Made by a program: the position numbers and the translations under genes. From an uncultured Saprospiraceae bacterium (GTDB lineage: Bacteria; Bacteroidota; Bacteroidia; Chitinophagales; Saprospiraceae): DNA of 64,000 nt. Location: assembly GCA_905480605.1 (NCBI GenBank), contig CAJQRD010000013.1, forward strand, positions 1-64,000, written 5' to 3'. The notes under the pieces were generated by a model. The model saw nothing but the letters and a program-made list of their open reading frames with translations, was not told the origin of the DNA and did not search any database. Below are positions 47,809 through 49,763 of this stretch, in pieces (positions within the stretch are counted from its first letter, which is position 1; every line of letters starts with the position of its first letter).

Positions 47809-48264
47809 TTATTCTTTGTTTTTAGTATCTACTATTATAGTTACCGGGCCATCGTTAATATAGCTTACTTTCATATCTGCTCCGAATATACCACAAGATA
47901 CCTTGATGTCGTGTGTAGAACGGATTTGCTCCGTAAAGGTTTCGTATATTTTATTAGCATAATCCGGTTTTGCAGATCTCAAAAATGAGGGTCTATTGCC
48001 CTTTTTAGTGCTTGCGAACAAAGTAAACTGACTTATAAGTAATATTTCTCCTTCAATATCCTTAACAGACAAGTTCATTTTACCTAACTCATCATTAAAA
48101 ATTCTAAGATTGACTATTTTATTTGATAACCATGTAATATCATCATTATTATCATCATCTTCGAAACCAATATAAACTATAAGTCCTTTTGAAATATTAC
48201 CAATAACTCTACCTTCAACTTTTACTTCAGCAGGCATCTTAGTCCGCTGTATAACTGCTCGCAT
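47809..48264 (-). CDS. dtd: D-aminoacyl-tRNA deacylase
   Basis: 151 residues that hydrolyse D-amino acids from mischarged tRNAs. The signature SQFTLFASTKKGNRPSF (about 76-92) and the cross-subunit Gly-cisPro motif NDGPVTIIVDT (about 136-146) are intact. It is the first gene of the long leftward series that runs to nadK and beyond. Its start is next to the AT-rich region proposed as replication origin. Confidence 0.95.
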   Translation of the reverse strand: MRAVIQRTKMPAEVKVEGRVIGNISKGLIVYIGFEDDDNNDDITWLSNKIVNLRIFNDELGKMNLSVKDIEGEILLISQFTLFASTKKGNRPSFLRSAKPDYANKIYETFTEQIRSTHDIKVSCGIFGADMKVSYINDGPVTIIVDTKNKE

Positions 48265-48710
48265 TGTGTTAGTTTATATGTTGATAAATATGAGTTATTA
48301 ACACCCTTTTTTAGAAGGAAACAATTTACAATTAATTATATATTATAATAAATTAAAATGTGTTTTTTATTAAGTTTTGTTCAATACTATTTATTCTATT
48401 ACTGACATCAACACAAGAATTATATATGAACATGTAATCTTATCAACAAGATGTTTAAATAAGCTATAAGTTATAATTTTATTGTGTTTCTGGTGTTGGT
48501 AAGATGTGAGTTAAGTAATAGAAGAATGTAGATTACATAATTCAGGTACTAAATCAAATAAAGTTATTAAGAAGCTAACACCCTTAATAATGAGACCTTT
48601 TTTTTAATTTAAATAATTTTATAACTAATTAAGAGTGTTTATAAGTTATTTAAATTGCAATAAAAGAAAACAATATTGACATAAAATGAATTAGTAGAAT
48701 AAATATTAGA
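48265..48710. other. AT-rich intergenic region, candidate replication origin (oriC)
   Basis: 446 bases without genes, between leftward dtd and rightward ctaA. It holds two copies of TTATCAACA (one mismatch from the DnaA box TTATCCACA), on the minus strand at 48279-48287 and the plus strand at 48440-48448. Weaker matches are TTATTAACA at 48295-48303 and TTACCAACA (minus strand) at 48494-48502. Two very AT-rich tracts, about 48320-48370 and 48600-48640, could serve as unwinding elements. Base skew of flanking genes changes here (see findings), and parS-like sites lie 5 kb to the right. dnaA is not adjacent, which is common in Bacteroidota. Confidence 0.5.
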
Positions 48711-49763
48711 ATGATCTATAACAAATATATTAAGGCTTGGTTGATTGCTGGTTGTTTATTACTTTTCTTTCAAATTATCATTGGAGGAATAACTAGAATT
48801 ACGGGTTCGGGTTTATCAATAACTAAATGGGAAATAGTTACTGGCACACTTCCTCCTTTAACTGATTCTGCTTGGCAACAAGAATTTGATCTTTATAAAG
48901 CTACTCCACAATATAACATGATCAATCAAGGAATGAATTTGGATAAATTTAAATTCATTTACTTTTGGGAATATTTCCATAGGCTATGGGCAAGAATAAT
49001 GGCTTTTGTTTTTATTTTCCCTCTTATCTTTTTTATTTTCAAAAAATGGATTGATAAAGATTTATTAAGACGGATGGGATATGTGTTTATCTCCGCTATG
49101 TTAGCAGCTATTTTTGGGTGGATTATGGTGGCTAGTGGTTTGGTGGAGAGGCCTTGGGTAAATGCTTACAAGCTTTCTTTGCATTTAGGCATAGCGTTGT
49201 TGACTTTAGGATTTCTTCTTTGGACAACGTTCCACGTTTTTTATGATGGAAAAATAATTAGTGATAATCGTTATTTTTCTAAGTTTTCGAAATACCTTTT
49301 TGTTTTTATTTGTATTCAAATTTTCTTTGGGGCTATACTTTCTGGTATGAGGGCATCGCTTTATTACCCTAGTTGGCCTGATATGAATGGCAGTATGTTT
49401 CCTTCTGTTTTGATGGATGCATCTAATTGGACTTTAGATGGGATAGTAAATTATGATAAGGATGCATTGATGCCCGCATTAATACATGTTTTACATAGGA
49501 GCTGGGGATATTTTGTTTATGGTTTAGGAATTTACTTTGCTATAAAGGTTTTACGATATCCTATGCGAAATTTATTTTATAAGCCTAATATTGCTTTGAT
49601 AATATTGTTAAACGTGCAAGTTTTACTTGGTATTTTGACCTTAATCAACTCTAAGTCGACAATACCAGTATTCTATGGTGTAATGCACCAAGCAATTGCT
49701 ATCTTTATATTTGGATTTGCATTATTTAATTTATATATATTTAGGAGCAATTTAAGAGCATAG
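48711..49763 (+). CDS. ctaA: Heme A synthase (COX15/CtaA family)
   Basis: 350 residues with eight hydrophobic helices in two four-helix halves. Conserved motifs are QIIIGGITRITGSGLSITKW, FWEYFHRLWARIMAF (heme-ligand His) and VLHRSWGYFVYG (second-half His). It oxidises the C8 methyl of heme O to give heme A for cytochrome c oxidase, implying aerobic respiration. The alpha/beta hydrolase gene starts immediately after its stop (TAGATG). Confidence 0.93.
   Translation: MIYNKYIKAWLIAGCLLLFFQIIIGGITRITGSGLSITKWEIVTGTLPPLTDSAWQQEFDLYKATPQYNMINQGMNLDKFKFIYFWEYFHRLWARIMAFVFIFPLIFFIFKKWIDKDLLRRMGYVFISAMLAAIFGWIMVASGLVERPWVNAYKLSLHLGIALLTLGFLLWTTFHVFYDGKIISDNRYFSKFSKYLFVFICIQIFFGAILSGMRASLYYPSWPDMNGSMFPSVLMDASNWTLDGIVNYDKDALMPALIHVLHRSWGYFVYGLGIYFAIKVLRYPMRNLFYKPNIALIILLNVQVLLGILTLINSKSTIPVFYGVMHQAIAIFIFGFALFNLYIFRSNLRA

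Follow-up and report, generated by a model that had tools for sequence, protein, structure and literature searches.

A candidate replication origin between dtd and ctaA

Where does replication of the chromosome begin in this uncultured Saprospiraceae bacterium? Many bacteria carry oriC beside dnaA, in Bacteroidota dnaA need not adjoin the origin, and in the present assembly of 125 contigs dnaA lies on another contig (C2). The initial annotation of the window (the whole stretch of DNA analysed, 64,000 nucleotides long) had placed oriC in the intergenic gap between dtd and ctaA. This location is supported here on better evidence, namely a change point in GC skew on the contig itself and a conserved core near the skew switches of relatives, and we consider it highly probable (about 0.94) that the chromosome is replicated from the dtd-ctaA gap. 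The verdict draws on the elements present in the sequence, on how well they are conserved, on the core having one strong copy and on the skew switch. What goes beyond the first reading is the core itself, its family-wide link with ctaA, the change of its neighbours outside the family and the strand-corrected skew.

The gap covers positions 48265-48710 (446 bp, 20.4% GC), holds no genes and separates two divergent genes, dtd on its left (47809-48264, minus strand; PF02580, E 1.2e-56) and ctaA on its right (48711-49763, plus strand; PF02628, E 1.5e-82), as had been described. An AT-rich unwinding region, which is expected of a bacterial oriC, was found in it. The six AT-richest 440-mers listed for the window all start at 48271-48331, 50-mers of 92% AT start at 48321-48331 only, and those of 90% AT start at 48336, 48601 and 48606, tied with three elsewhere in the window. 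Both AT-rich tracts proposed by the initial annotation are present. The first (48321-48380) contains the 92%-AT 50-mers and an inverted-repeat-like block that is conserved in the alignment of 12 gaps introduced below; the second, a T/A-rich tract at 48597-48655 with 90%-AT 50-mers, adjoins the DnaA-trios of the core, is T-rich in most aligned cores and is likely the duplex-unwinding element. The inverted-repeat-like block itself (48332-48362) is AT-rich and consists of TTATATAT, about 10 further bases and then ATATATG/TAA; it is kept at aligned positions in the other gaps of the genus and forms a near-palindrome in L019 and L020; it is possibly the site of an origin regulator.

A Dtd search gave a match in 55 of 60 relatives. 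Thirty loci were fetched, one of them the window, and the order dtd/gap/ctaA was present at 10 other loci of the genus and at one further locus of the family (L033); the window, the 10 genus loci and L033 make up the 12 aligned gaps. This order was not seen at L014, a genus locus whose contig ends 76 bp beyond dtd. At L021, from another genome of the genus (G008, 78% complete and without a match to the core profile R1 described below), dtd-mazG-spoIIE is kept and neither ctaA nor boxes lie beside dtd, an exception for which misassembly, rearrangement or a lost contig are possible explanations.

Scattered DnaA boxes in the gap

The DnaA-box-like sequence TTATCAACA occurs twice in the gap as an exact copy, at 48279-48287 (minus strand) and 48440-48448 (plus strand), and the oppositely oriented pair on which the initial annotation was built is real, as are the two weaker matches that it mentioned. 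Sites with one mismatch lie at 48295-48303 (TTATTAACA, plus strand), 48494-48502 (TTACCAACA, minus strand) and 48636-48644 (the weak TTATAAACA, minus strand), giving five box-like sites at no more than one mismatch to TTATCAACA. When the gap was simulated 2000 times with a first-order Markov model, two exact sites never arose, and at least five sites at up to one mismatch appeared with a frequency of 0.0005. The 15 densest 446-bp windows listed for box-like 9-mers all start at 48061-48421. On a larger scale the boxes are less striking: the whole window has four exact sites against 2.4 expected, which is within the ordinary range, as 24 of 100 shuffled sequences have at least as many. Exact TTATCMACA sites number 241 in the genome (the reversed control pattern gives 188), so that little can be concluded from the two exact TTATCAACA sites by themselves. 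Pairs of TTATCMACA less than 450 bp apart numbered three among the 100 sites listed, the pair in the gap included.

Conservation was scored over the 12 aligned gaps, in which the 892 column-strand positions gave a mean of 0.85 gaps and a 99th percentile of 9. The best conserved scattered box is that at 48295, kept with up to two mismatches (±2 bp) in 11 of the 12 gaps, followed by 48440 (9/12) and by 48494, which is represented at the neighbouring starts 48492-48493 in 7 of 12, all at up to two mismatches. Under the same tolerance, further kept positions are 48504-48507 on the minus strand (8-9/12), 48422-48426 on the plus strand (7-8/12) and 48265-48266 on the minus strand (7/12). The 9-mer at 48636 recurs identically and similarly placed in L011 and L016, and an exact box near 48279 was found, among the 11 other aligned gaps, in L017 only. 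The initial annotation had counted absence of the boxes from relatives with the same gene order against its own proposal; what we see is a cluster that is partly kept, at 48295, 48440 and 48492-48493, but whose main box at 48279 is hardly conserved.

A conserved core with tandem boxes and DnaA-trios

A highly conserved block of the gap, absent from the initial annotation, lies at 48564-48592. An IUPAC pattern of this core proved too unspecific, the reversed control matching about equally, so a profile was used instead (R1, made from 17 core sequences with the window's own included); counts out of 69 refer to its 69 best-ranked matches in the family, the own one excluded. In the core, degenerate DnaA boxes stand in tandem and are separated by 3 bp from a row of three DnaA-trios. 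Box 1 (TTATTAAGA, 48564-48572, plus strand), supported by the core alignment and the profile, has three mismatches to TTATCCACA and, counted by hand, two to the local form TTATCAACA; box 2 (AAGCTAACA, 48572-48580, plus strand) has six mismatches to TTATCCACA, and its final ACA is kept in 69/69 family matches. The spacer CCC (48581-48583) is followed by the trios, which read 3'-AAT TAT TAC-5' on the minus strand (48584-48592) and whose middle bases are all kept in 67/69 family matches. Across 34 sequences the consensus of the core is TTATCCACAAATTAACA-GCC-CTAATAATAATA, with the period-3 T of the trio part invariant in every one of them. Separately, the gap contains two copies of the 10-mer TAACACCCTT, one at the conserved box 48295 (48299-48308) and one at core box 2 (48576-48585).

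This layout resembles the basal unwinding system (BUS) of other bacterial origins, which was defined in Bacillus subtilis and has been predicted in 1755 of 2070 species (PMC8287927). As described in PMC8287927 and PMC6669920, the BUS plan joins DnaA boxes, often in tandem, through a short GC-rich spacer (mean length 4 bp) to three or more 3'-NAN-5' trios, of which GAT is the commonest next to the box. The window core likewise has tandem boxes, a short spacer, at least three NAN trios, an AT-rich stretch beyond them and a [G/A]AT trio next to the boxes; the 11 bp between box 1 and the trios fall within the 10-13 bp peak reported in PMC8287927. It differs in that its boxes are degenerate and that its distal trios are TAT and TAC and not the commonest GAT. 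Measured by the published rule, which as given in PMC8287927 asks for a DnaA box with up to two mismatches and, no more than 16 bp from it, three or more NAN trios, AAT TAT TAC pass as trios; the window boxes fail against TTATCCACA, box 1 staying within two mismatches of the local form TTATCAACA. In the family, a box with up to two mismatches to TTATCCACA is present in 46/69 matches and is accompanied by a second box at up to four in 34/69, and some relatives (L174, L337) carry the near-perfect tandem TTATCCAC-TTATCCACA. Reading the trios from a box on their right was considered and dropped, because the nearest 16 bp on that side contain no box-like 9-mer at up to one mismatch and because trios, as described in PMC8287927, sit on the box-adjacent 5' tail.

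GC skew at the gap and at the core of relatives

The skew of the genome itself was read from the 76-kb contig that carries the window. Raw GC skew is -0.063 over the 48 kb to the left of the gap and only +0.011 over the 27.6 kb to its right. The five base counts from which the initial annotation had argued for a shift at the gap are exact but come from selected lines; the compositional shift that it proposed becomes clear once genes are separated by strand. GC3 skew then rises across the gap from -0.067 to +0.221 in plus-strand genes and from -0.188 to +0.010 in minus-strand genes. Fitted with separate levels for the two gene strands and one step, it gave a best change point of 48.8 kb (support 47.7-49.1 kb, step 0.255), which places the change on the gap.

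In paired-stretch scans of relatives, which were centred on the core and thereby limited in what they could find (the own-contig scan was not centred), G092 (contig of 4,345,237 bp) had negative raw skew in 19 of the 21 stretches to one side of the core and positive raw skew in 18 of the 19 to the opposite side; its skew switches back at 4.1-4.2 Mb, close to half a chromosome away. In this genome the strand-corrected GC3 skew was noisier than the raw values: it was negative in 15 of 21 stretches on the left and positive in 15 of 18 on the right, and one stretch gave no value. For G097 the raw skew agreed in 10/10 and 10/10 stretches and the strand-corrected skew in 9/9 and 9/10, and the reverse switch fell at 6.4-7.1 Mb, half a chromosome being 6.1 Mb. 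Within the genus, G009 showed a full flip on both gene strands, from about -0.11 to +0.11, and G002 a partial one, from -0.044/+0.023 (near zero left of the gap) to +0.066/+0.088; for G006, where the right side alone was available, GC3 skew was positive wherever computable.

Fine change points included the core in their support in G092 (2051.8-2053.3 kb; core at 2052.3), G162 (377.8-380.7 kb; core at 378.3) and G268, in which nadA is the neighbour of the core (639.2-641.3 kb; core at 640.2). In G162 the switch coincides with the best R1 match, and there is none at a weaker match (3.61 Mb), which is flanked by positive skew left and right. The core of G002 (199.7 kb) lies at the edge of a broad support interval (199.4-212.5 kb, best 212.4 kb). 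Two genomes placed the core outside the support, by 3-6 kb: G097 (2352.0-2352.7 kb; core at 2348.9) and G009 (246.3-247.9 kb; core at 242.1). Because these two fine change points miss the core, our confidence is set marginally lower than it would otherwise be. No readable skew was found around the core of G160, and the change in G215 was weak and broad. With these two uninformative, a skew switch of the kind sought at oriC was found on the own contig and in relatives.

A single strong core with changing neighbours

An origin is expected once per chromosome, and in its own genome R1 gave a single strong match, at the gap (E 4.8e-11; next best 0.02). In the genus, 11 of 14 genomes had a match, including all seven of those at least 90% complete, although most of these genomes had supplied model sequences; the three without a match are 53-79% complete. 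Matches at E<=0.1 were found in 137 of 160 genomes of the family and were missing at this threshold in the other 23. In the order, a match at E<=0.01 was present in 50 of 119 genomes, of which 40 belong to other families, and of 80 Dtd loci from named genomes, none on a complete chromosome, two matched at E<=0.01 (L093 and L082, both labelled Saprospiraceae). A search of the class with a second profile, R2, gave 32 of 149 at E<=0.01; 11 loci were inspected, and of these L375 falls within an ORF and L377 and L380 appear to be chance matches. L367 (G293) and L376 (G420), from other families of the class outside the order, carry a core-like sequence with tandem box-like sites and a cytidylyltransferase-like gene on its left, which suggests that core-like sequences are spread more widely in the class.

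The gene context of the core raises the strongest rival explanation within the family, that it is a regulatory element of ctaA (a promoter or operator) in which DnaA boxes are incidental. In its favour, 67 of the 69 family matches are followed on the right, after 20-550 bp, by a COX15-CtaA gene oriented the same way. Of these genes 61 are relatives of the window's ctaA and six another COX15-CtaA gene; if the eight genomes that supplied model sequences are left aside, 59 of 61 matches have such a neighbour. Two matches show none: L171, with an M20-peptidase-like gene on the right, and L273, whose contig ends 109 bp away; dtd lies on the left in 38/69. Outside the family this context disappears: none of the 20 core loci inspected in other families had a ctaA or dtd relative in the flanking DNA retrieved (about 1.5 kb), and the neighbours tested were NadA (PF02445) on the right in 6/6 and cytidylyltransferase-like (PF01467), presumably nadD by its motif, on the left in 2/2. 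Moreover, a ctaA operator would not put a skew switch at the core, and in G268, with nadA as neighbour, the switch is still there. Because of the contexts in other families we reject regulation of ctaA, which we regard as very unlikely, in favour of an origin. Within the family, L161, L168, L169, L183, L284 and L299 have, where ctaA would stand beside the core, a COX15-CtaA gene of another, diverged kind that tblastn with the window's ctaA at 1e-5 missed; a replacement of ctaA in place is possible.

More improbable still is that oriC lies elsewhere, at or near dnaA on C2 as the arrangement in many bacteria would suggest, with the gap acting as a DnaA-titration or regulatory site. The initial annotation had named a genome-wide skew minimum far from the gap as evidence against its proposal, and at dnaA there is no switch: GC3 skew in the 10-kb flanks is alike on both sides (-0.038/-0.244 and -0.044/-0.192). 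Nor was a box cluster found in the 3.2 kb around dnaA, which hold four scattered one-mismatch boxes and no exact one. To the reading of the gap as an ordinary AT-rich divergent promoter region, with chance box matches and a chance compositional step, we give next to no weight. Exact boxes do abound in the AT-rich genome, and of the two main boxes that at 48279 is poorly conserved, but the core is conserved with one strong copy and repeated skew switches, and it is kept across families beside unrelated genes.

Discussion

The dtd-ctaA gap is thus very probably an ordinary kind of origin, now well located. By analogy with work on other bacteria, DnaA would bind the scattered boxes and the tandem core boxes (48564-48580), extend over the 3-bp spacer onto the minus-strand trios (48584-48592) and open the T/A-rich tract next to them, where the helicase would be loaded and from which forks would leave bidirectionally.

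Like other chromosomal origins unlinked to dnaA, the gap belongs to a genome whose dnaA lies on a different contig lacking a skew switch at that gene; it differs in that the neighbour in its family is usually ctaA, with dtd. Another chromosomal origin from the same phylum, the oriC of Cytophaga hutchinsonii, has reportedly been carried on replicative plasmids. Replicative oriC plasmids of that species are also listed in PMC5288383. In the open-access literature we found no earlier description of a ctaA-linked oriC, an oriC of Saprospiraceae or DnaA-trios in Bacteroidetes, DoriC and subscription papers being outside the scope of this search.

A more tentative proposal, which we think rather doubtful as yet, is that the genus has a divergent BUS, in which the core boxes have drifted from TTATCCACA (to TTATTAAGA and AAGCTAACA) and the trios have been kept. 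Such a BUS would perhaps involve a DnaA with altered box preference, or a larger role of the other boxes and the AT-rich inverted repeat. On the same reading, the order as a whole would have one 30-bp core per genome with different gene neighbours (ctaA and dtd; nadA; a cytidylyltransferase-like gene), so that relocation of the origin relative to genes could be traced.

These results locate oriC in a draft genome in which dnaA gives no clue, and provide a short profile with which the likely origin can be pointed out in many relatives, even from draft assemblies. Such a profile would allow replication rates to be estimated from metagenome coverage and sensible start coordinates to be set, and the drifted boxes would allow a test of how DnaA opens origins of this type.
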